Under the pieces are notes generated by a model. That model was not told where the DNA came from, made no database searches, and was given only the letters and a program-made list of their open reading frames with translations. Positions 5,482 through 59,446 of a stretch of DNA of 64,000 nucleotides are shown here, piece after piece (within the stretch, counting starts at the first letter, position 1; every line of letters starts with the position of its first letter). The DNA lies in contig NZ_CP034118.1 of the NCBI RefSeq assembly GCF_003856495.1, forward strand, positions 2,642,112 to 2,706,111, given 5' to 3'. Both the position numbers and the translations under genes were made by a program. The DNA is from Staphylospora marina (GTDB lineage Bacteria > Bacillota > Bacilli > Thermoactinomycetales > Thermoactinomycetaceae).

Positions 5482-6276
5482 ATGCTCGTTGCAGTGGATG
5501 CAGGACGCGCATATGTCAAAACCGTGGTGGGGAACCGGAAATTCTCATTTCCGAGCAAGGTTTCCAAAGCGCGAAAGCGAACGTTTGTCCAGACATTGGA
5601 AGGGGACATGGAGCTTACATACATGGGGAAGGAGTATTTCATCGGACAGCTGGCCGAGAGGGAGGGATCGTTCACGAGGCAGATGATGACGGAGTCGAAG
5701 GTGAACACGGAGACGGTACTGCTGATCCTGGCCGCGCTGTTCCAGGCGGGAGTGGTGGGAGACGTCAAAGTGGTCACCGGGGTACCGATCAACATGTATC
5801 GCGAGGATGAACGGTCCCGGCTGAGAGCGCGGCTGGAGGGAGAGCACGAAGTGGTCCTGAACGGGACGTACCGGAAAATCAACATCCGTCGCGCGGCGAT
5901 CACGATTGAAGGAGGCGCATCCTACTGGATTCACCGGAGGATGGGAACCGTGCGGATCGTGGACCCCGGTGCGCGGACGACCAACTACGCGACGTTCAAG
6001 GACGGCGTGTTCATCGACCGGGAAAGCGGGACGCTGCCCAAAGGATGGGACAATGTGCGGGAAGCGGATCCGGAGGAAATGGCGGCGATGATCGTCGGAC
6101 ATCTCGGCGGAATGTGGGATCCGTCCGACGTGGTGGAAATTATCGGCGGAAAAGCGCGCGATCTCCTGGAACCGTTCAAACAAGCCGGCTTCCTCTACGC
6201 GACCACGGTGGAGGATCCGCAATTCGCCAACGCGCTGGGATACTATGCCCTCGGAAAGGAGACGCTGGGTGAATGA
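5482..6276 (+). CDS. short ParM/AlfA-like actin (segregation ATPase)
   Basis: A 264-residue actin-fold ATPase, shorter than R1 ParM (about 320) and close to plasmid AlfA (about 275). Visible motifs are phosphate-1 VAVDAGRAYVKT at residues 3-14, phosphate-2 IVDPGARTTNYATF at about 160, and the adenosine motif EIIGGKARDL at about 220. Such proteins polymerise into filaments that move DNA bound through an adapter. AAGGAGG stands ahead of the ATG. The stop overlaps the RHH gene start (ATGA), giving an actin-adapter operon behind a centromere-like array. No plasmid replication or phage genes adjoin it, so it appears chromosomally resident. Base composition does not stand out from its neighbours. 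Confidence 0.85.
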   Translation: MLVAVDAGRAYVKTVVGNRKFSFPSKVSKARKRTFVQTLEGDMELTYMGKEYFIGQLAEREGSFTRQMMTESKVNTETVLLILAALFQAGVVGDVKVVTGVPINMYREDERSRLRARLEGEHEVVLNGTYRKINIRRAAITIEGGASYWIHRRMGTVRIVDPGARTTNYATFKDGVFIDRESGTLPKGWDNVREADPEEMAAMIVGHLGGMWDPSDVVEIIGGKARDLLEPFKQAGFLYATTVEDPQFANALGYYALGKETLGE

Positions 6277-25270: not shown

Positions 25271-27073
25271 CTATTGTACCGCACCCCGCACGGCCGTGGC
25301 AAAAGCCTTCACGTCGTCGGTTTCCCTGTTTTTGCTCCGCGATTCACCCACGGATGCCTCCGATTTCTTGCCGCTGCCTCCCTCCACCACGCGAAGCCGG
25401 ACCTGCCGGACGGGCAAGTGGATGTGAAACACGGTTCCTTGTCCGGGCTGACTGGTGAAGAAGATCTGGCCGCCGTGTTCCGTGATGATGCGGTGACAGA
25501 TCGCCAGCCCCATGCCCGTTCCTTCTCCCTTGGTGGTGAAGAAGGGCTCAAAGATCCGGTTCATGTTTTCCGGCTTGATTCCGTTGCCGTTGTCTTCGAC
25601 ACGGATGATGACCCAGTCACCGGACCCCTGCCACGTGACGCGCACGCTACCCTTTTCATCCAAAGCTTCCAGGCCGTTTTGCACCAGATTGATCAGCACT
25701 TGCTTCAGTTGTTCGGAATCCGCCTCCAGTTCCAGTTCCGCATCCGGTCCCTCACCGGTGAGGGTATGTCCCATCAGCAGGGCTTTGGGCCCAAGCAGCC
25801 GCAGAACGTCCTGAATCAACTGACCCACGTCAAACCTCGTCACCTGCATCGGTCTGGCCTCCCTCAGATTGAGGAACTCCTTCAGCAAATCATTGATCCG
25901 GTCAATCTCTTCCAAAATGATGGTTTCCCACTTTTTCACCGCCTCCGACTCCTTCGCGGAGAGCTGCACGAATCCGCGGATGGAGGTGAGCGGATTGCGG
26001 ATTTCATGGGCGAGACCCGCAGCCAGCTGGCCGAGGGCGGACAGCTTTTCCAAATGACGGCGATGTTCTTCTTCCCGGTTCCGATGCAGTCGTTGCTTGA
26101 TCGCCAACCGTTCCTCCGCCAGCCGGATCAGATCGGCTCCCGAAACGGTCTCTTCCGGATAGGAGGCCGTTCCCACCGCATACCCCAAATAGGCGAGCTC
26201 CTGTTTCATGTCGGCCATCAACCGGTCCACGGTGTCGAGAACCTGCCGGAGCATGCGGGAGTCTCCGGTAAATCCGATGCCGAACTGGTCTCCGTCGTAC
26301 CGGGCGATCTTGACGGAAGCAGGCAACTGCTTTTTGAGTTTTCTGGCGATATGGACCAGAATCCGGTCACCGACTTCCACCCCTTCCCGGAAGTTCACCT
26401 GGCGAAAATCCTTCAGGTCCAGACAGACGACGTGATAGGATTGGCCCGGAAGGCACCGCGCCAGTCCCCGAACCACTTCCGCACGGAATGCTCCGAAGTT
26501 GTAAAGGCCCGTCAGATTGTCCCGCAGATACACTTCTTCCATTTCCATCATGTAGTTGCGCAGCCGCCGGTACGCCTCGTTTTTCTGGTTGATGATCAGC
26601 CTGTTTTTTTCCTGCAGCTTCCGGATGTTGAAATGGTCGCTCTGAATCTGGTTGCTCATCCAGGTGATCCCGAAAAACAGGAGAACGTGCCCGGCCAGTT
26701 CCACCAACACCCACCGGTTCCAGACCGTGAGAACGGAAACCGCGACATAAACGGATGAAAACAAAAGTGCAATCAATCTGGAACTCTCTTCCCCGGAACG
26801 GAACAGAACGTAGCCGAGCATGAACAAATAGACGGGAAGCACCGGGATCGTCTGGGTAAACACGTCCAGCAGAGAGACGAAAACCAGGACGGCCACCGTG
26901 TATCCGTAAGCGGGGAGCCTCGAGATCCGGTTTTGTCCCAGGAACAGGAGAACGGTCAAACCGGCCGTGACGGCCCCCACACAAATCCAGGCCACGTAAG
27001 GATTCTGCAGAAAGAGCTCCGAGATGACGCGATACAGGGGGCCGATCCGGTATGTATCCTGCAGATCCAGCAC
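25271..27073 (-). CDS. membrane sensor histidine kinase with degenerate GGDEF domain
   Basis: A 600-residue orphan kinase. About six hydrophobic helices fill residues 25-150; a GGDEF-like domain follows (DNLTGLYNFGAFRAE ... RYDGDQFGIGF), in which the signature GGDEF has become DGDQF. Then comes HisKA with phospho-acceptor HEIRNPLTSIRGF at about 365 and HATPase boxes (LVQNGLEAL, DNGNGI, GTGMGLAICHRI). The kinase half resembles sporulation kinases of Bacillus, which feed Spo0F. GTG at 27073 is chosen because GGGGTGG lies seven bases before it. No response regulator is adjacent. A Spo0A-box-like site lies upstream. A sporulation role is inferred. Confidence 0.85.
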   Translation of the reverse strand: MLDLQDTYRIGPLYRVISELFLQNPYVAWICVGAVTAGLTVLLFLGQNRISRLPAYGYTVAVLVFVSLLDVFTQTIPVLPVYLFMLGYVLFRSGEESSRLIALLFSSVYVAVSVLTVWNRWVLVELAGHVLLFFGITWMSNQIQSDHFNIRKLQEKNRLIINQKNEAYRRLRNYMMEMEEVYLRDNLTGLYNFGAFRAEVVRGLARCLPGQSYHVVCLDLKDFRQVNFREGVEVGDRILVHIARKLKKQLPASVKIARYDGDQFGIGFTGDSRMLRQVLDTVDRLMADMKQELAYLGYAVGTASYPEETVSGADLIRLAEERLAIKQRLHRNREEEHRRHLEKLSALGQLAAGLAHEIRNPLTSIRGFVQLSAKESEAVKKWETIILEEIDRINDLLKEFLNLREARPMQVTRFDVGQLIQDVLRLLGPKALLMGHTLTGEGPDAELELEADSEQLKQVLINLVQNGLEALDEKGSVRVTWQGSGDWVIIRVEDNGNGIKPENMNRIFEPFFTTKGEGTGMGLAICHRIITEHGGQIFFTSQPGQGTVFHIHLPVRQVRLRVVEGGSGKKSEASVGESRSKNRETDDVKAFATAVRGAVQ

Positions 27074-27192
27074 GTTTTTTCCACCCCTTTTCCAAAAGTT
27101 GTCAAATCCAGACGAAATCAAACACATTTTGAGGGCATGAATGGTCTTTTTCTTCCACTCTTCAATAAAATAATCCTCCCGTCTGCGTTCGA

Positions 27193-27201
27193 TTCGACAA
27201 T
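27193..27201 (-). promoter_or_regulatory. Spo0A-box-like site upstream of the sensor kinase
   Basis: Read leftward, ATTGTCGAA differs from the 0A box TTTGTCGAA by one base, about 120 bases before the kinase start. Confidence 0.4.
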
Positions 27202-27241
27202 AGATATCAAAATTCGATAAATGTTTTGACCGAACGGGCTC

Positions 27242-27287
27242 AAAAAAAAAACCGGGGAGTCCGCAACAAACGTCACGGACTCCCCTC
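27242..27287 (-). terminator. terminator of the 196-residue unknown gene
   Basis: Read leftward, GGGGAGTCCG and CGGACTCCCC around a 12-base loop are followed by GGTTTTTTTTTT. It separates the unknown gene from the kinase. Confidence 0.9.
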
Positions 27288-27441
27288 ATTCTTTCCGGAC
27301 CATGCTTGTCCGCCGCAGCCATCCGACGATCCCTTGGCCCATCCGGATCGCCGGACGGCAACCTCCGCGGACGCTTTCTTCCCCCGTTCGCAACCACACA
27401 TGCTGACTCTCCCTTGCGGCTCCGGTTCTCGACATCATCGA

Positions 27442-28032
27442 TCATCCCAGATAGTTGACGAGGTGATTGAATCCTTTCACGACTTTTTCCTTGTCCCCTT
27501 CACGCTCCATGCCGGGCACGTGTCTCATTTCCCATCCGGTGTAAGGCTCGTCCATCAAAGGCTGCTCCCGTTTCAACACGGCCACTTTTTGTGCTTCTTC
27601 CCCATAGGGATAATAGCTTGCGACCGGCTCATGCGCTTCCATGCCGGTGAAGGCGTGACCGGCGACGGGACGCACCGGGTACATCGGCTGGTCGTTCAGC
27701 AGGGTGTGAACCACGGTCTCTTTCAGAATGTTTTTGATCTCCTCGCTGCGGTAACCGCTTTCAAGCCCCTTGATCCATTGATACACCGGGCCGTCTTCCG
27801 GCGTGAACGTGACATTCCGCTGGGTGGGAACGTATTCGGCTTTCTTCTGGATCTGCTCCCTGAGCACTCTCGCGTCGCAGATGGACTGGAGCGGGAAGTA
27901 GTTGTTGCGCAGGTAGGACTGGATGCAGTATTTCACGAGCATCGGAAATTGGCCTTTGGGCAGGATTTCATACCAGTAACGGACCAGACGATCCTTTTTT
28001 CCGAGATATACACCGACAGTAATCGAAGACAT
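27442..28032 (-). CDS. unknown protein with Spo0A box upstream
   Basis: I do not recognise this 196-residue protein. The first 45 residues (SSITVGVYLGKKDRLVRYWYE, then LPKGQFPMLVKYCIQSYLRN) have a strand-helix-turn-helix order reminiscent of ribbon-helix-helix adapters such as ParR. The remainder is polar with many tyrosines, prolines and methionines. GGAGGTG precedes the ATG. It is a single-gene unit with its own terminator and a perfect 0A box about 93 bases upstream. A DNA-binding role, possibly for one of the two actin homologues in the window, is only a hypothesis. Confidence 0.65.
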   Translation of the reverse strand: MSSITVGVYLGKKDRLVRYWYEILPKGQFPMLVKYCIQSYLRNNYFPLQSICDARVLREQIQKKAEYVPTQRNVTFTPEDGPVYQWIKGLESGYRSEEIKNILKETVVHTLLNDQPMYPVRPVAGHAFTGMEAHEPVASYYPYGEEAQKVAVLKREQPLMDEPYTGWEMRHVPGMEREGDKEKVVKGFNHLVNYLG

Positions 28033-28124
28033 CCGAAAAGCACCTCCGCTGGTTGTAAATTTTCAAATAACCTGAATTCATGTAAATCGTAGCAGTTCAT
28101 TATAAAATCCGTCAACGGGAATAC

Positions 28125-28133
28125 TTTGTCGAA
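28125..28133 (+). promoter_or_regulatory. Spo0A box upstream of the 196-residue gene
   Basis: TTTGTCGAA is an exact 0A-box match, 93-101 bases upstream of the start codon, in reverse orientation to the gene, inside an AT-rich intergenic stretch. Confidence 0.55.
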
Positions 28134-51425: not shown

Positions 51426-52182
51426 TCATCATCACCACTTCCTTCGCCAATTCCATGTAACACTCCGCTCCCCGCGAGCGACCGTCGTACGTCATGATCG
51501 GCTGGCCGTGACTGGGAGCTTCGCTCAGACGAACATTGCGGGGAATCACGGTCTCGTACACTTTCTTCTGGAAGTATTTCTTCACTTCATCCATCACCTG
51601 AACCGACAAGTTGGTTCGTGCGTCAAACATGGTCAACAGCACCCCTTCAATCTCCAGGTGCTTGTTCAAGTGTTTTTGTACGAGCCGGATGGTGTTCAAC
51701 AGTTGCCCCAGCCCTTCCAAAGCATAAAACTCCGCCTGGATGGGGATCAACACCGAATCGGCCGCCGTCAGGGCATTCAAGGTGATGATGCCCAAAGAAG
51801 GTGGACAATCCACAAAAATGTAATCGTACACCTCTCTCATCGGTTGCAAAGCCCACTTGAGACGCAACTCGCGAGAGATGGCTTGTGACAATTCGATTTC
51901 CACACCGGCCAGCTGGATGGTCGCCGGGATGATGTGCAAGCCGGGAGTATCGGTCTCCAATATCACTTGGGAGGCCGGCACCTCATCCAACAGCACGTTG
52001 TAGACGCACTGTTTGACATCCGCCTTGTTGATGCCCAATCCACTGGTGGTGTTCCCTTGCGGGTCGATGTCCACGATCAGTACTTTTCGGCCCAAACGGG
52101 CAATCCCTGCCGCCAGATTGATCGATGTGGTGGTTTTGCCCACACCGCCTTTCTGATTGGCCACCGCAATCACTTTCCCCAT
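51415..52182 (-). CDS. parA: chromosome partition ATPase ParA (Soj)
   Basis: A 255-residue deviant-Walker ATPase (KGGVGKTTTSINLAAG at residues 11-26) that binds DNA non-specifically, works with ParB in origin segregation and modulates DnaA. Other motifs are LIVDIDPQGNTTSGLG and YIFVDCPPSLG. GAGGTGGG precedes the ATG. It forms an operon with parB. Confidence 0.97.
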   Translation of the reverse strand: MGKVIAVANQKGGVGKTTTSINLAAGIARLGRKVLIVDIDPQGNTTSGLGINKADVKQCVYNVLLDEVPASQVILETDTPGLHIIPATIQLAGVEIELSQAISRELRLKWALQPMREVYDYIFVDCPPSLGIITLNALTAADSVLIPIQAEFYALEGLGQLLNTIRLVQKHLNKHLEIEGVLLTMFDARTNLSVQVMDEVKKYFQKKVYETVIPRNVRLSEAPSHGQPIMTYDGRSRGAECYMELAKEVVMMNER

Positions 52183-52837
52183 GCTCCCACCTCATTTCCC
52201 CAACATTCACACAACCGGAAGCGGAGGACCGTGCCGACACGGAAGGTCCGTCCGGAGCCGGCAAAATAAACAAAACGAGGCTTCCTGCAGCCTCTTCCGA
52301 TTCGGCCGGTTGCCGACCTGCCCCGTCGCCGGATGAATCACTTGCCGGCCGGGATTTTTGCCAACTCTTTGAGGCCTTGCCGTGCCCCCAAGCGTCCGAC
52401 AGATCCACCGGACACGTCACGACTTCTCCGCAAGCATCCTTCCGGAATCTTCAGATTCCGCTCACGCAACAGATTCCTTCAGTCCGATCCCCTGGTCAAG
52501 CAGAGCTTTTCCCGAAGTTTCCCCTTCTTATTGTAAACCCTCAAAAAAGAGAACAAAAGAGAGAATTCACCAAAATCAAAGTGTCATGTAATGAATCAAT
52601 CCCCTGCAAGACGGACATGAACCGTGATGAGCGGCGGACTCATGCCACCCGTCTGCAATCTCCGCGGAGAACATGTTCCGATCGAAGCGGATCCGGTTCC
52701 CCTCGGCAGGATGGAAATGAGACGTTCCGATGGGCGGCGGAAGCGCCGTACATGCGCATGCACCATCTCCTCCCGGCACTTCCGATTCCGGACCGCCCGA
52801 CCGGTATTCTTTCCGATGCTCCATGCATGAATGAAGG
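52183..52837. other. 655-base gap between noc and parA
   Basis: In Bacillus these genes are nearly adjacent. Here the stretch has no recognisable gene, no parS, and no strong hairpin. Short AT-rich patches near 52540-52600 could hold the parA promoter. Open frames present lack ribosome sites or family features. Confidence 0.5.
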
Positions 52838-53665
52838 TCATCCATGCTGTTTGGGAATACGGATGACCAGTTCATAGTGAGTCTCGGTTTCCCGTTCATC
52901 CGTCTCCACATTCATGCCCGTCTGTTTCACCATCACGACCGACTGGCGAATGGTGTTGACGGCGATGCGCACATCCCGGGAGAACGCTTTCCTTTTCGGT
53001 TTGGCGGACGTTTCTTTGGGCTCAAGCCATCGCCGGACCCGTTCTTCCGTTTGCTTGACGTTGAGATCTTTTTCGAGGATCTCCCGCAGCACCGACAGCT
53101 GGGTATCTTCATCCTTCAGCGACAACAGGGCGCGGGCATGACGCTCGGTGATGGTGCGTTTCAACAATTCGTCCTGCACCGCTTTGGGAAGTTGAAGCAA
53201 TCTCAACTTGTTGGCAATGGTGGATTGCCCTTTCCCCAAGCGCTGGGCCAGACTTTCTTGGGTCAATTGATGAAGCTCAATCAATTTTTGATAGGCATGT
53301 GCTTCTTCAATCGCCGTCAAGCCTTCGCGCTGCAGATTTTCGATCAGGGCGGCGGAAGCGGCCTGGCTGTCGCTCATCTCCCGCACCACGGCCGGAATGG
53401 TCTTCCAGTTCAAGCGCTTGACCGCTCTCCAACGCCGTTCGCCTGCGACCAATTCAAATTTCCGGTCCCGTTTTCGCACGACAATCGGCTGAATCACACC
53501 GTGAAGCTGAATGGTCTGACACAATTCTTCGATTCGATCATCATCGAACACACTCCGGGGTTGATAAGGGCTCGGTGTGATTTGATCAACGGGGATTTGC
53601 TTGACCTGCTCTTGTTCCGGCTCTTTTTCCATCAGGCCAAACCAGCGGCTGAAGGGTTCTTTCAT
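52838..53665 (-). CDS. noc: nucleoid occlusion protein Noc
   Basis: A 275-residue ParB paralogue that blocks division over the chromosome by binding Noc sites and the membrane. The amphipathic N-terminus [20 protein letters not shown] is typical of Noc. ParB-like boxes follow ([44 protein letters not shown]), with helix-turn-helix [20 protein letters not shown]. The start at 53665 fits the family; an ATG seven codons earlier is possible. Confidence 0.94.
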
Positions 53666-53781
53666 GGTTGAAGACACCACCTTCATACATTTCCAAACCG
53701 CTTGTCATCCTCTATTGATTTCGCTGCCGGTCGCGTTCTCCCTTCCCTTCCGCCGGCCTGTCCGATATGAAAAACGGGGAA

Positions 53782-53797
53782 TGTTTCACGTGGAACA
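53782..53797. promoter_or_regulatory. parS: parS site upstream of noc
   Basis: TGTTTCACGTGGAACA is the exact reverse complement of the parS inside parB. It lies about 115 bases upstream of noc and 160 bases before the second actin gene. Confidence 0.92.
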
Positions 53798-53881
53798 TTG
53801 TCATAAAGAACGTTTATCAACAAGAAAACAAATTATATATGAAGGATGTATAAAAGAATTTGGGTTGTTTTCTTTCTCTTG

Positions 53882-53911
53882 TTGACCCTTTCCCTTAGCA
53901 ATTGATAGAAT
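53882..53911 (+). promoter_or_regulatory. sigma-A promoter of the origin-proximal actin gene
   Basis: TTGACC and TAGAAT with an 18-base spacer, about 45 bases before the actin-like start. Confidence 0.65.
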
Positions 53912-53956
53912 CGTGAAAAGAGAGGGACTTCAACGGTTGAGGGAGGCAATCCACTC

Positions 53957-55144
53957 ATGAGCAATCAGGTATACATAGGGAACGACCAAGGGTACTACGG
54001 CACCAAGGTCGTTGCCCGGGCGAACGGAAAATTTTACAAAATGTTCATCCGCAACATGGTGGTTCCCAACCGGGTGGGTGAAATCACCTACAACAATGAC
54101 CCGCACAACATCATGTACCGGGAACGCGAAGGGGACCGTGAATGGTTCTGCGGAAAACTGGCGATTGAGCAAGCCGGCGACGATGAACTGTTCGATTCGC
54201 ACAAGCGCCGGCTGTTCAGCCCGACCTGGTTCCGTGAAGAAGAATACCTGATCATGTTCCGGGTCAGCACCGGTCTGATGCTTCAGGGGAACTCGGAACC
54301 GGTGGTGTCCGTCGCCCTTCCGACCGACAGCTATATCGACTACAAGGACGAACTGAAGCGCAGGCTGGTCGGAAAACACAGCTTCGAGGTGAAACAGGGC
54401 AACCTTCCCTGGCGCAAAATCGAATTTGAAATCAAAATGGAGAACCTGTATGTGATCAGCCAGCCGATGGCCACCCTGTTCCACATTGCGCTCGACCGGG
54501 ACGGCAAACTGCTGAACGAGGATCTGTTCATCCAAAAAGTGAGCATTCACGACCTCGGCTTCGGAACGTCCGACATCGAAACCCTGCACGGCGAAACCAT
54601 CATCAAACGGCAAAGCTTCACGTCCCGTTTCGCCATGCTGTCCGTTTACGAACTGCTGGCGAAACGCCTGCTTGAATTTACCCGTCAAGTGGATCCGGAC
54701 GGACTCGGAAAAGAGTATCCGATCTGGGGATTGCCGCGCATCGTCCGCTCCGGCGAGATCAGCTTCAAAGGAAAGGTTCATGATGTCAGCACGATTGTGG
54801 CCGAATGCGTGAAAGAGATCGGACAGGCTTTGGTGGAAGAGGTATGGACCCGTCTCGACTATGCGGATGACATCACATACATCATCCTGACCGGCGGCGC
54901 CTCGATCCCGTTCAAACCCTTCTATCGGGAACGCTTCGGAGACAAACTCATTTTCGCTGAAGACTACGGCATCGAAGCCCAGTTCGCCAACGGTTTCGGA
55001 CTGTGCAAATTCGCCCAGTCCAAGGCCCGGTCGGTAAGCAGCCGCGACTTGCTGGAAGCGGCCGCCGCCATCCATCAGGAATTCTCCGTTCCCGAATCGT
55101 CGGTGGACGCCTCGAAAAAGCAAGCCGGGAAAATCAAAAAGTAA
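53957..55144 (+). CDS. ParM/StbA-type actin homologue near oriC
   Basis: A 395-residue actin-fold protein, unlike the shorter actin at 5.5 kb. Motifs are phosphate-1 VYIGNDQGYYGTKVVA at residues 5-20, phosphate-2 IHDLGFGTSDIETLHGE at about 197 and adenosine motif ILTGGASIPFKPFYRERFG at about 312. It belongs to the ParM/StbA and archaeal-actin-like superfamily. GGGAGG precedes the ATG. It sits between noc and rsmG, where Bacillus has no gene, and no RHH adapter or repeat array accompanies it. A role in origin positioning is plausible but unproven. Confidence 0.85.
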   Translation: MSNQVYIGNDQGYYGTKVVARANGKFYKMFIRNMVVPNRVGEITYNNDPHNIMYREREGDREWFCGKLAIEQAGDDELFDSHKRRLFSPTWFREEEYLIMFRVSTGLMLQGNSEPVVSVALPTDSYIDYKDELKRRLVGKHSFEVKQGNLPWRKIEFEIKMENLYVISQPMATLFHIALDRDGKLLNEDLFIQKVSIHDLGFGTSDIETLHGETIIKRQSFTSRFAMLSVYELLAKRLLEFTRQVDPDGLGKEYPIWGLPRIVRSGEISFKGKVHDVSTIVAECVKEIGQALVEEVWTRLDYADDITYIILTGGASIPFKPFYRERFGDKLIFAEDYGIEAQFANGFGLCKFAQSKARSVSSRDLLEAAAAIHQEFSVPESSVDASKKQAGKIKK

Positions 55145-55242
55145 CCCGCATCGAAATGTCCGCCGGGGCATGTTCCTCCGATGTCTTCTCGAAAGCCGTC
55201 GACAATCGGAACCGCTCCCCGGTGAACCATACGGATCCACAG

Positions 55243-55265
55243 GCCCCCAAGGATTCCTTGGGGGC
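55243..55265. terminator. palindrome after the actin gene
   Basis: GCCCCCAAGGA and TCCTTGGGGGC abut, giving an 11-base-arm hairpin about 100 bases after the actin stop, but no U run follows. Weak or partial terminator. Confidence 0.4.
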
Positions 55266-55406
55266 ATCGTTCTTCAACACCGGCCAAAGGCTCCCGCATC
55301 CTCCAAAAAATGCGGTGGCACGCCGGCTTCAAAAAAGGGATAATAGGAAGGAAAGACTTGTCCATGCACGGGTTCCCAGCAACCAGGAGGATCAGGGGGG
55401 AGAACC

Positions 55407-56699
55407 ATGACACACTTCGAACCCGGCTATGACGTGATTCTCATCGGAGCGGGAGAATCCGGGCGGGAAACGCTGAACGTTCTGGAAAACCAGGGCAAAC
55501 GGGCGTTTTACATCGAACTGGCACCGGAAACCGTGGCGACGTTGATCAGCCAAAACCCGCCCGCTTCCGAGGAAGAATCCCCCTCCCGGCCGCTTTCGGT
55601 TCAAATCGGAGACCGGGAAATGCCCATCCGTCTGTACGGCCGGCGCTTCCGGACCGCTGCCGGAGAAACGGTCACCTACACCTTGCAGATCACGGCCGAA
55701 GAATCCCCGGAAAACAGACCGGTAAACACGGAAGTGCACATGGAAGAGGACGTCCGGGAAGCGGAACCGGACGGTTGGAACGTGTCTGAAGAACCGGAAG
55801 TGCTGGAAGCGGAACAAGTGGAATACGCCTCGCCCTATACGTTCGTGAGCGAACGGGAGGCGCCTTTCAGGGAAAAATTGTCCAAGCGGCGCAAGATCTC
55901 GTTCCAGGACGCCGCTCCGGAACAGGAGACCGACATGCCGGTCTACACGCTCGAACGGCTGACCCTCAGCGATGATGAGGAAGATGATGAATGGACCCGC
56001 ACCGATTCATACGCTCCGGAGCAGGAAGCGGATGCGGCACGGGATGACCATCCTCTGTGGCAGGCCTCGCGACCGCCGGTCTATCGCGAGCGGGAACTCA
56101 AATTGCGCAAGCGGTTGTTCGCCTCAAACCGTTTGAGCCAGACCGGTCCCGCCGAAATGCCGCCGGAATCGTCGCATCAGCCGATTGCGGATTTTGCGGA
56201 ACCGCAACCGTACGTGAAAGAGTCCGTGAAGGAATCGGCCCATGAACCCGCCGCTTCCCCGGCCGAACCGGAACTGTTCCAATTGGAACCGATTTCACGC
56301 AAACGCGCCCGCTCCCAAAAGAAAGTCCGAATCCAGAAAAAACTCGACGAAATCCAGGCGGAAGCCCGCCCCGCGGCTCCCCCGGCACCCCAACCGGCGG
56401 AGGAACCCGATCCGTCGTTCTTTTCCCCCTACCCCGGGGGATTGTTCGGAGGAGGACAACCGTCCATCCAGCCATTCAGCCGTCCAACCTCCGAAAAGGA
56501 ACCGGAATCCTCCGATTCGCACGAGGCACTCAAAAAAGATGACATCGAGCTGGAAGATGCCTTTGGGGGGTACAATTCGTGGGAAGAATTCATGACCCCG
56601 TTTTCGGAGGGCAGTCGCAAACGGCAAGAGATCGACAAGGTGGAGAAACGGAAAATCGCCCTTCGCGGTCTGCACAATCTCATCAACAACCTCGGTTGA
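55407..56699 (+). CDS. unknown protein: dinucleotide-binding start, long disordered body
   Basis: I do not recognise this 430-residue protein. Residues 8-37 read as a Rossmann beta-alpha-beta (DVILIGAGESGRETLNVLEN, then QGKRAFYIE, with GxGxxG and a terminal Glu), but no complete FAD/NAD domain follows; a short beta-rich part ends near 110. Residues 110-370 are Glu/Pro/Ala-rich with basic patches (SKRRKISF, RERELKLRKRLF) and look disordered. The C-terminus GYNSWEEFMTPF...EIDKVEKRKIALRGLHNLINNLG looks folded and helical. A strong GGGGGGAG site precedes the ATG. It follows the actin gene and may be its partner; this is inference. Confidence 0.8.
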   Translation: MTHFEPGYDVILIGAGESGRETLNVLENQGKRAFYIELAPETVATLISQNPPASEEESPSRPLSVQIGDREMPIRLYGRRFRTAAGETVTYTLQITAEESPENRPVNTEVHMEEDVREAEPDGWNVSEEPEVLEAEQVEYASPYTFVSEREAPFREKLSKRRKISFQDAAPEQETDMPVYTLERLTLSDDEEDDEWTRTDSYAPEQEADAARDDHPLWQASRPPVYRERELKLRKRLFASNRLSQTGPAEMPPESSHQPIADFAEPQPYVKESVKESAHEPAASPAEPELFQLEPISRKRARSQKKVRIQKKLDEIQAEARPAAPPAPQPAEEPDPSFFSPYPGGLFGGGQPSIQPFSRPTSEKEPESSDSHEALKKDDIELEDAFGGYNSWEEFMTPFSEGSRKRQEIDKVEKRKIALRGLHNLINNLG

Positions 56700-56750
56700 C
56701 AAAAGGCCGAAAGTCTCCCGTGAATCCGGCGGGAACTTTCGGCCTTTTGT
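56699..56750. terminator. strong bidirectional terminator
   Basis: ACAAAAGGCCGAAAGT pairs perfectly with ACTTTCGGCCTTTTGT (16-base arms, 20-base interior with CCCG/CGGG). It separates the unknown plus-strand gene from the facing rsmG. Confidence 0.92.
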
Positions 56751-56752
56751 GT

Positions 56753-57472
56753 TCAAACCAACGGTTGGCGGGACGGAGTGCCGGCTTTTCGCGGATATGC
56801 TTTGGGGGTGGGAGCATTCTTGCGGACCACCACCAGATGACGGGTCCCCATGGACAGGGGAAGCTCCAATCGCTCCACGCGGACCGTCGCCTTGCCCAAC
56901 AGCGAAAACGCCCGTTTCGCTTCCCGGACCTCCTCCTGCACTTCCGCCCCTTTCATCGCGCAGAAGGTTCCGTTCACCCGGACGAACGGCAACACGTACT
57001 CCGTCAGGACGTTCATGCGGGCCACCGCACGGGCCGTCGCCACATCGAACCGCTCCCTGAACGCGGGATTCCTGGCGGCTTCCTCCGCCCGGCCGTGTAC
57101 GCACTCCACGCCTTCCAGTCCGAGCTTTTCCGTCACTTCCCTGAGAAAGCCGACCCGCTTGTTCAGGGAATCGAGGAGAACCACTTTCAGGGACGGGAAG
57201 GCAATTTTCAGCGGAATTCCCGGAAATCCGGCCCCCGTTCCCACATCGATCAGCGAACCGACTTCCCCGAAGTTCACCGCCTTGGCGGGCGACAGGGAGT
57301 CCAAAAAGTGTTTCACGTACACTTCCCGAGGCTCAGTGATGGCCGTCAGGTTCATCACCTTGTTGGTCTCCGTGAGCATGTCCAGGTACATGCTGAACTG
57401 CCCGAGTTGCCGGTCATCCAGTTCCACCCCGTACGCCCGCGCTTCCTCTCTCAGCCATTCGTTCAGATTCAC
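56753..57472 (-). CDS. rsmG: 16S rRNA (guanine-527-N7)-methyltransferase
   Basis: A 239-residue methyltransferase (GidB). Motif I is LIDVGTGAGFPGIPLKIAFP; other features are LLDSLNKRVGFLREVTEKLG, GRAEEAAR and VATARAVARMNVLTEY. GTG start with GGAGG seven bases upstream. Last gene of the mnmE-mnmG-rsmG series. Confidence 0.97.
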   Translation of the reverse strand: MNLNEWLREEARAYGVELDDRQLGQFSMYLDMLTETNKVMNLTAITEPREVYVKHFLDSLSPAKAVNFGEVGSLIDVGTGAGFPGIPLKIAFPSLKVVLLDSLNKRVGFLREVTEKLGLEGVECVHGRAEEAARNPAFRERFDVATARAVARMNVLTEYVLPFVRVNGTFCAMKGAEVQEEVREAKRAFSLLGKATVRVERLELPLSMGTRHLVVVRKNAPTPKAYPRKAGTPSRQPLV

Positions 57473-57556
57473 CGTCCGACCTCCTCAAAAAAAGGACGGG
57501 CCGCCCCGGACCGCACGGATTCCGTCCGGCCCGGCGCCACCCGGGGCCCTTCACCC

Positions 57557-59446
57557 TCACGTATTCTTCACGTACGCTTTGCCGCCCTGTTCGATGTGCA
57601 CCATCAGAATGGAAATGTCCGACGGATTCACGCCGGAAATCCTCGATGCCTGTCCCAGGGAGAGCGGGCGGATCTTTTTCAGTTTTTCCCGGGCTTCGGT
57701 GGAGATGCCCATGATTTTGTCGTAATCCACCCAATCGGGAATCCGCTTTTCTTCCATGCGGCGCATTTTCTCCACCTGCTCCAGGGCTTTTTTGATGTAC
57801 CCTTCGTACTTGAGCTGGATTTCCACTTGTTCGGCCACTTCCGCCGGAACGGGCTCGGGGGCGGGGGACATGTTCGCGATTTCCCGGTATCCCAGTTCCG
57901 GACGTTTGATCAGGGTGGCCAACTCGACGGCGTTGTTGATTTCGGAGCTGCCCGCTTCCCGCAGAACGGCTTGCACTTCCGGCACGGGTTTCACCTTGGT
58001 TGCGCGCAGTCTGGCGATTTCCCGTTCGACGGCTTCTTTTTTCTCCAGGAAGCGTCTGTAACGTTCTTCGGAAATCAGGCCGATCCGGTAGCCGATCTCC
58101 GTGAGCCGCATGTCCGCATTGTCGTGCCTGAGGAGCAGCCGGTACTCCGCCCTGGAAGTGAGCAAGCGGTACGGTTCGTTGGTTCCCTTGGTGACCAGAT
58201 CGTCGATCAACACGCCGATGTATGCCTGCGAACGATCGAGGACGAGGGGTTCTTTCCCCTTGACCTTGAGCGCGGCATTGATGCCGGCCATGATGCCCTG
58301 GCCGGCCGCTTCCTCGTATCCGGACGTCCCGTTGAGCTGTCCGGCGGTAAACAGGTTTTCCACCTTCTTCGTCTCCAGGGTCGGCCACAACTGTGTCGGC
58401 ACGATGGCATCATACTCGATCGCATACCCGGTCCGCATCATTTCCGCGTTTTCCATGCCTCGGATGGTGCGCAGAATCTTGAGCTGAACATCCTCCGGCA
58501 AACTGGTGGACAGGCCTTGCACGTACATCTCCGCCGTATCCCGGCCTTCCGGTTCGATGAAGATCTGGTGCCGTCCCTTGTCGGCGAACCGGACGATCTT
58601 GTCCTCGATGGACGGGCAATAGCGGGGACCCGTTCCTTCGATGATGCCCGAGTACATCGGGGCCCGGTGCAGGTTTTGCCGGATGATCTCGTGCGTCCGT
58701 TCGTTGGTGTAGGTGAGCCAACAGGGAAGCTGGTCCATGATGAATTCGGTCGTTTCGTAGGAAAACGCTCTCGGAACGTCATCGCCCGGCTGGGGCTCCA
58801 TCACGTCGGTATCGAGGGTGTTCCGGTTGACGCGGGGAGGCGTTCCCGTTTTGAAGCGCACCATCTGAAAACCCAATTCCTGCAGATGAAGGGACAGGTT
58901 GACCGACGGCTGCTGGTTGTTGGGACCGCTCTCATAGGACAGGTCGCCGATGATGATGCGCCCGCGCAAATAGGTCCCGGTGGTGAGCACGACGGCTTTG
59001 GACCGGTATTCCGCCCCCGTCCGGGTGATCACTCCGTGACACACCCCGCTTTCGACGATCAAGCGTTCCACCATGTCCTGGCGAACCGTCAGCCCGGGCG
59101 TGTGTTCCAACGTCTTTTTCATCTCTTTCTGGTACAGGACTTTGTCCGCTTGGGCGCGCAAGGCATAAACGGCCGGTCCCTTTCCGGTGTTCAGCATGCG
59201 CATCTGGATGTGCGTTTTGTCGATGTTGCGCGCCATCTCTCCGCCGAGGGCGTCGATTTCGCGGACGACATGCCCTTTCGCCGGTCCCCCGATGGACGGA
59301 TTGCACGGCATGTAGGCGATGGTGTCCAGGCTGAGCGTGAGCAGCAACGTGGAACAACCCATGCGGGCGGAGGCCAGGGCCGCTTCGCAGCCGGCATGTC
59401 CCGCCCCCACGACGATGACGTCATAACGGCCGGCGTCATATCCCAT
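57557..59446 (-). CDS. mnmG: tRNA uridine-34 carboxymethylaminomethyl synthesis protein MnmG
   Basis: FAD-dependent partner of MnmE (GidA) that modifies wobble uridines. The 629-residue protein has the FAD motif [20 protein letters not shown], the GidA signatures [20 protein letters not shown] and [12 protein letters not shown], and the C-terminal helical domain ending [17 protein letters not shown] precedes the ATG. Confidence 0.97.

Follow-up and report, generated by a model that had tools for sequence, protein, structure and literature searches.

Several described bacterial systems are built around an actin-like protein of the ParM type. In the plasmid ParMRC systems, for example those of R1, pSK41 and Bacillus thuringiensis, the actin ParM is accompanied by parC and by ParR, an adaptor whose tail binds ParM. 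The AlpA–AlpC system of the Corynebacterium glutamicum prophage CGP3 is said to join an actin with a DNA-binding adaptor. Chromosomal ParMR systems, such as Dh-cParM1 and Cb-cParM, are also known; the study on them describes a ParM-type actin conserved in a bacterial group and ParR proteins which share limited sequence similarity between different loci and are predicted to have a ribbon-helix-helix fold (PMC12270681). In filamentous cyanobacteria, the ParM-type actin FcmB shows high conservation among filamentous members and is absent from unicellular ones (PMC12645912). The present work deals with a further ParM-type actin, encoded between noc and rsmG near the chromosomal origin of Staphylospora marina (Thermoactinomycetales), with the partner gene that follows it, and with a third gene located elsewhere in the same region. 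The stretch of DNA analyzed, called here the window, comprises 64,000 nucleotides of contig NZ_CP034118.1 (assembly GCF_003856495.1, positions 2,642,112 to 2,706,111), and the positions given below are counted from its first letter.

The locus resembles the plasmid systems in the actin family, in a predicted filament and in a tail-bearing adaptor with a putative actin-binding C-terminus; unlike them, it has no ParR gene adjacent to the actin, shows no parC array in the stretches examined and is not carried by a plasmid. It also differs from AlpA–AlpC, which is reportedly prophage-borne and in which no counterpart of a tail-sharing scaffold is seen. With the chromosomal ParMR systems it has in common a ParM-type actin conserved in a bacterial group and ParR-like proteins of limited sequence similarity, but here a distance of 25–40 kb (80 kb in Pasteuria) separates the ParR-like gene from the actin, the same kind of tail recurs on a second protein, and the slot is fixed across an order. 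A chromosomal ParM is of a known kind; what is new is that the set is split over two loci, shares a tail and extends over a whole order. An earlier sequence-only reading of the locus knew of no described system with the actin and its partner. In line with this, no paper on the set was found in the open-licence PMC literature (searches that combined the group with ParM, actin homologues, MreB or the cytoskeleton, and ParR with Spo0A), but chromosomal ParM systems have been described, in a paper whose main text contains neither 'Thermoactinomyc' nor 'Laceyella' (PMC12270681).

The reading favored here is that the three genes constitute an origin-proximal actin set, probably a rewired ParM–ParR machine, whose predicted task is the movement or anchoring of origins, in hyphae or when spores form. 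It is drawn from the joint distribution of the genes, their proximity to the origin, the tail shared by two of the proteins and the weak likeness of one of them to ParR, and it is held with belief and doubt almost in balance, doubt being slightly the heavier.

Distribution and conservation of the actin

The order was sampled with 42 genomes, of which 40 are at least 90% complete and the other two are incomplete (67–68%). The source genome of the window measures 2.75 Mb, and the named relatives are Laceyella, Thermoactinomyces, Shimazuella, Melghirimyces and others; f1, f2, f3 and f5 are family labels within the order, f2 consisting of two genomes. The actin is present in 38 of the 42 genomes, which are 38 of the 40 at high completeness, with 77–100% identity. 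It is missing from both f2 genomes, and the other two misses are the incomplete genomes. A partner open reading frame (ORF) adjoins the actin in all 38 loci; noc lies on the 5′ side in 37 (it is missing in Pasteuria, L088) and rsmG on the 3′ side in 37 (the contig of L097 ends first). The order noc, actin, partner, rsmG was found in each of the 21 named loci. By similarity, the partner was detected in 38 of 61 genomes, namely 37 of the 38 actin-bearing ones and one incomplete genome. No insert separates noc from rsmG in either f2 genome, where only a short gap with a parS lies between them. The insertion between noc and rsmG is a fixed trait of Thermoactinomycetales. The sequence-only reading had placed a 395-residue actin and a 430-residue partner in this junction, where both ORFs are found at the coordinates that it gave, and the conservation of the pair, which it had offered for checking by synteny, is borne out, the Pasteuria partner being recognized by position and by eye only. 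In Pasteuria (L088, L112; G007) noc is missing, and a long stretch with unrelated ORFs separates parB from the actin.

Outside the order, 398 genomes of the class gave actin matches (E <= 1e-8) in seven, with at most 47.3 bits and 22–33% identity. When 5.8 billion proteins were searched with word seeds, 38 actin homologues (E <= 1e-5) were listed, 77–93% identical, and every named one comes from Thermoactinomycetales, including Pasteuria penetrans. No actin homologue between 33% and 77% identity was seen in the 398 class genomes or in the word-seeded search. The family looks isolated, with near-identical members inside the order.

The protein can be assigned, as had been proposed, to the ParM/actin-like protein superfamily, since it exceeds the Pfam cut-offs of ALP_N (42.8 bits, cut-off 26.3) and MreB-like_C (28.8 bits, cut-off 27.8). 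In the actin alignment, which covers 28 of the 38 sequences, D10, G12, K17, D199, G201, G203, T204, D206, G313 and G314 are invariant, within the phosphate and nucleotide motifs of actins. The actin falls under all NCBIfam cut-offs for named actins, for instance those of NF010498 (ParM equivalog; 47.5 versus 417) and TIGR03739 (PRTRC_D; 53.3 versus 214.8), and PF06723 (MreB_Mbl) gives no match to it up to E 1; a 486-bit MreB is encoded elsewhere in the same genome (G000:C1:980280). A search of solved structures found pSK41 ParM (3js6) as the best match (E 0.0016), with two more at E 0.43–0.45. With a weak fused actin–partner model, the best Foldseek matches were Dh-cParM1, followed by pCBH ParM and B. 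thuringiensis ParM, and the R1 ParM–ParR peptide complex 4a62 was also listed. NCBI names the product 'ParM/StbA family protein' or 'hypothetical protein'. A second actin-like ORF of 264 residues is found at 5482–6276 (+) of the window (PF17989, 100.8 bits) and is possibly the 'first' actin to which the sequence-only reading alluded; a further actin-like match is located at G000:C1:1752128-1752556. In one genome (G031) the TGA marked in the actin match (L025, G031:C3:146972-148132) is the own stop of a 388-residue ORF (L094).

The actin is the slowest-evolving of the seven proteins compared. Its median identity to the window is 84.1% (37 loci), followed by MnmG (81.5%), ParA (77.6%), ParB (71.4%), Noc (69.7%) and RsmG (58.6%), with 36 loci each; the best-matched part of the partner reaches 44.7% (35 loci). 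The mean column identity over the 28 aligned actins is 84%. Such conservation of nearly the whole surface is consistent with a protein that packs into filaments and has several binding partners.

The partner, the third protein and their common tail

The partner of the window matches no Pfam or NCBIfam family and is not a full-length MnmG. The dinucleotide-binding start ascribed to it in the sequence-only reading does correspond to a relative of the MnmG/GidA N-terminal domain (PF01134), with 34% identity to the MnmG start over 97 residues in L047; it is, however, a short and degenerate piece, in which the GxGxxG motif is retained in 17 of the 38 partners. PF01134 was found on seven of the 54 partner homologues listed by a profile search, in which scoring was confined to the 7,993 candidates with the most words in common and whose named homologues are all from Thermoactinomycetales. 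A role as a FAD- or NAD-dependent enzyme was rejected, as the motif is lost in 21 of the 38. In the fused model the N-domain is predicted confidently (residues 461–560, ten-residue means of 84–96 except one of 61). The disordered body, described as acidic in the sequence-only reading, has a net charge of −22 in the window but is near neutral or basic in other families. It contains at least one copy of the basic motif RERExxLR+KL in 34 of the 38 partners, two copies in 13, and a second basic block, SRRRxRxxKK; by eye only, the internal RERE motif resembles the tail. The length varies across loci from 227 to 871 residues. Over the 29 aligned partners (of 38, Pasteuria not among them) there are 15 invariant columns, 14 of them within the last 55 residues, and the protein ends in the ALRGLHNLINNLG type in all except Pasteuria. 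The Pasteuria ORF is called a reduced partner by its position and its end ERELSNLINSLG, by eye only.

The third protein, whose gene lies ~26 kb from the actin and outside the coordinates of the sequence-only reading, came to light through this tail. When the final 59 residues of the partner were searched against the order, a weak extra match appeared in three f5 genomes (E 0.001–0.008), which corresponds to the C-terminus of a protein of 233–239 residues; five weaker matches were taken as noise. The third protein is present in 40 of the 42 genomes, including Pasteuria and both incomplete ones, and is missing only in the two f2 genomes; all 38 actin-bearing genomes of good completeness have it. 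In these 38 the two genes are on one contig, 24.7–40.0 kb apart in 37 and 79.7 kb apart in Pasteuria. Among 5.8 billion proteins, 75 homologues were found, the named ones belonging to this order and one labelled only Firmicutes; NCBI names the product 'hypothetical protein'. The first ~115 residues contain 44 invariant columns over the 39 rows of the alignment, in which a few proteins are present twice. A 724-residue ORF that looks by eye like a sensor kinase (25271–27445, −) shares four bases with the end of the third gene, and the two may therefore be co-transcribed.

The two tails were compared in two ways. With 21 of the 38 partners and 19 rows of the third protein, from which the f3 rows L144–L146 (without the terminal block) were left out, hhalign scored 46.1, and 47.5 without gappy columns, whereas 150 column shuffles reached at most 18.1 and averaged 9.0; taken alone, the acidic first block scored 32.9, and the last, hydrophobic block 17.2. 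Once all 38 partners and the 43 unique third proteins were included, the score was 41.2 (probability 96.2), against a maximum of 17.4 and a mean of 7.7 in 150 shuffles. A crude pattern for the first block matches 26 of the 39 rows and misses the window protein, where the block is visible. The partner and the third protein thus share a tail type, which is not universal in the third protein.

A resemblance to ParR was noticed in seven neighbourhoods of distant ParM matches in other genomes of the class. There, the profile of the third protein ranks first the genes directly 3′ of ParM in L149, L147 and L148. When the full profile was run against the 3,074 ORFs of the retrieved loci, the first three matches after the window's own were these ParR genes next to distant chromosomal ParMs (E 0.0024, 0.0042 and 0.086), and the N-domain alone gave E 0.046, 0.052 and 0.29. 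The alignment starts at about residue 75 of the third protein and covers putative helices. It is important to note that the three ParRs are mutually related and come close to one observation. The N-domain of the third protein would thus weakly resemble ParR, on evidence that we regard as moderate.

The upstream region of the third gene contains TTCGACA, a putative Spo0A box. In a count covering 30 third-gene loci, which leaves out 10 of the 40 gene-bearing genomes, the exact heptamer occurs at most 300 bp 5′ of the gene in 29, and 100–145 bp before the start in 25, against a background of 0.03 per 300 bp (71 sites over 644,522 bases). It is also found at most 200 bp from the actin start in 10 of the 38 loci, assigned to the ten f3 loci, and 5′ of the partner in six of the 38.

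Layout of the locus

The positions of the genes and sites in the window are collected in Table 1.

Table 1. Genes, sites and protein regions of the actin set and its neighbours in the window.
Feature	Coordinates	Strand	Remarks
ParM-superfamily actin, 395 aa, ALP_N + MreB-like_C	53957..55144	+	D10.G12..K17, DLGFGTSD (199-206) and TGGxS (312-316) conserved
Partner, 430 aa	55407..56699	+	MnmG-like but degenerate N-domain; short basic motifs in a disordered body; conserved tail
Partner tail LKKDDIELEDAF...EKRKIALRGLHNLINNLG	56529..56696	+	terminal motif in 37/38, exception Pasteuria
Third component, putative ParR-like orphan, 196 aa	27442..28032	-	near-invariant ~115-aa N-domain, variable middle, tail LKREQPLMDEPYTGWE...KGFNHLVNYLG
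Tail region of third component	27445..27597	-	homologous to partner tail
Promoter-like site of third component, TTGACG-18-TACGAT	28086..28115	-	TG before second hexamer; by eye
TTCGACA (= TGTCGAA), Spo0A-box-like	28127..28133	-	11 bp 5′ of TTGACG read as -35
Promoter-like site of actin, sigma-A type, TTGACC-18-TAGAAT	53882..53911	+	TG before second hexamer
Terminator-like perfect hairpin, 3′ of actin	55243..55265	+	
Promoter-like site of partner, GTGGCA-18-GATAAT	55315..55344	+	
noc, left neighbour	52838..53686	-	TIGR04285, 372.7 bits, cut-off 315
rsmG, right neighbour	56753..57472	-	TIGR00138, 178.4 bits, cut-off 99.5
parS TGTTTCACGTGGAACA	53782..53797		ancestral neighbour, present also where actin–partner pair absent

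The actin and the partner do not form a simple operon, because a hairpin and a second promoter-like site stand between the two genes. In the window stretch, the promoter-like sites number two against 0.9 in shuffles and the terminator-like sites two against 4.8; these counts are not clearly above the shuffles, and the argument for the sites is therefore carried by conservation, the window alone providing no evidence for them. In this regard, the pattern TTGAYC-N17-19-TARAAY occurs no more than 260 bp from the actin start in all loci but one of the 38 (37; the exception is L039), in agreement with the proposal of the sequence-only reading that the actin has a promoter of its own, and a loose C-run/G-run pattern is found at most 140 bp past the actin stop in 34 of the 38. 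At the position of the partner promoter, many f1 genomes (by eye; e.g., L048, L034 and L035) show a CTAGC..AAAAAAGAGATAATA element, promoter-like but matching no sigma consensus that the analysis could name. An imperfect inverted repeat, AAACTGTTACT..AACATAG / CTATGTTTTTAGTAGCAG, is seen by eye 5′ of the partner in L033, L043 and L045 (Thermoflavimicrobium-type). Three f5 genomes (Polycladomyces-type) have, by eye, a Mur-ligase-like gene between the partner and rsmG (L091, 8558–9949; L092, 9505–10905; L093, 9167–10582). Rfam gave no match in 52000–58000, and a scan with the Noc-binding-site pattern found no constant site by the actin.

Competing readings of the set

If the set is a rewired ParM–ParR machine, the actin would form nucleotide-dependent filaments and the shared tail would bind it, in the manner of the ParR tail and ParM. 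The third protein would then tie the filament ends to DNA, and the partner would tie them to another anchor: the membrane, a pole, the septum or perhaps a second nucleoid. The disordered body of the partner, with its RERExxLR+KL motifs, would serve as a multivalent scaffold. Growing cells would produce the actin and the partner, and Spo0A would switch the third protein when sporulation begins, so that ordinary filaments may become origin-capturing when spores form in the mycelium. The role in origin segregation or spore chromosome capture suggested in the sequence-only reading gains from the ParR-like protein with the same tail and from the Spo0A-box-like site, and it stays at the level of a prediction.

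Several observations weigh against this proposal. The third gene is not adjacent to the actin, and the gene that is adjacent encodes the partner, which is not a ParR. No relative of the third protein was found in Pfam or NCBIfam, and its best match in the PDB has E 0.11; a tandem ribbon-helix-helix, with spacing identical by eye, was considered and rejected (profile score 10.0 against a shuffle maximum of 18.7). Four of the seven ParM neighbourhoods gave no match to the third-protein profile, including one with a ribbon-helix-helix-looking candidate (L151). In the three window stretches of 281–321 bases searched for parC there is no parC-like array, only two-copy families of 8–23 nucleotides. 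The terminal block of the tail is missing in eight of the 43 unique third proteins, namely that of Pasteuria (P0139) and seven assigned to f3, and the 227-residue ORF in the Pasteuria slot matches neither the partner nor its tail. AlphaFold yielded a mean predicted local distance difference test (pLDDT) score of 53.2 for the fused model and 46.0 for the actin alone, so that neither the actin nor an interface could be modelled usefully; an actin–partner interface taken from these models was rejected, the fused model being too weak and the actin alone worse, for which an overly uniform alignment is the probable reason. The Spo0A box is a putative one, and the 29 sites are not independent because the whole upstream block is conserved among close relatives. 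Shimazuella soli, reported without hyphae, has the genes. Finally, the distribution may reflect one gain or one loss, which offers no independent test of a mycelial link; the link to mycelial growth is therefore a correlation at one node.

Chief among the rivals is a ParM-derived actin of morphology or hyphal growth, similar to FcmB, in which the partner would be an envelope-side scaffold and the third protein a regulator, not a DNA anchor; it is judged unlikely. It draws on the retention of the actin across an order of mostly mycelial lineages, described as mycelial in a family review, together with its absence from f2, on the precedent of FcmB (PMC12645912), on the sigma-A-type promoter, which suggests vegetative expression, and on the Mur-ligase-like gene of the three f5 genomes. 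The pattern of MreB would also fit this rival well. All 42 genomes have some match above the PF06723 cut-off, and 24 have a strong one (at least 477 bits, the next match being at 82 bits, in long frames of other proteins). Strong MreB is present in both f2 genomes and in 22 of the 38 actin-bearing ones; it is missing in the other 16 (G003, G005, G007, G008, G010-G012, G017-G022, G025, G027 and G031), all of which keep the actin and which stand in several places of a tree of four origin-region proteins, rooted on f2 by choice and weakly supported at the base. Nonetheless, the 22 genomes with MreB also keep the actin, the genes stay near the origin, and the ParR-like character of both the shared tail and the N-domain speaks for an ancestry in segregation. 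FcmB itself is a separate family, whose model (NF052678) scores 13.2 bits against a cut-off of 300, and a shape role of the window actin is only hypothetical.

A scaffold of spore morphogenesis that acts in septum formation, engulfment or the assembly of cortex and coat, and handles no DNA, seems quite improbable. The Spo0A-box-like sites before the third gene, the actin and the partner would suit it, as would the fact that Pasteuria, an endospore-former with a reduced genome, has kept both actin and third gene; but the actin has a sigma-A-type promoter, no sporulation family was found in the libraries searched, the f2 genomes, probably of rod-shaped spore-formers, are devoid of the set, and the resemblance to ParR would be left unexplained. 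That the set is a module of nucleoid occlusion or linked to Noc, and owes its place beside noc to this, is very improbable: the slot by noc and parS (at most two mismatches) is constant in all 37 noc-bearing loci, but Pasteuria, with no noc match and no strong MreB, keeps the actin and the third gene. The parS between noc and rsmG, which had been read as a hint of function, is ancestral and stands in f2 without the pair; its adjacency was consequently rejected as functional evidence. Least credible of all is a domesticated or selfish remnant of plasmid partition with no chromosomal role, which ParM ancestry would allow and which chromosomal ParMs of unknown role bring to mind (PMC12270681); a fixed slot, a median identity of 84%, retention in the reduced genome of a parasite and a distribution shared by three genes at two loci speak against it.

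The favored reading of a rewired ParM–ParR machine has a bolder form, possible but leaning towards unlikely, in which the mycelial endospore-forming Firmicutes would possess a dedicated, never-lost actin cytoskeleton for chromosome origins. Two proteins with the same tail would take hold of the ends of one ParM-type filament, one of them a DNA adaptor switched by Spo0A and the other a scaffold of the growth phase, and the filament would pass from nucleoid spacing in hyphae to origin capture for the spore. If true, this would be the first actin-based machine of chromosome segregation fixed across a bacterial order and kept even where MreB and Noc have been discarded. The set makes directly testable, in cultivable and harmless mycelial strains, whether an actin can move or anchor a bacterial chromosome; a simple binding assay could be built on the shared tail, and the third gene would escape any inspection confined to the neighbourhood of the actin. 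For those Firmicutes that lead a spore-bearing mycelial life without a strong MreB, as 16 of the 38 actin-bearing genomes may, it is a gene set to test.

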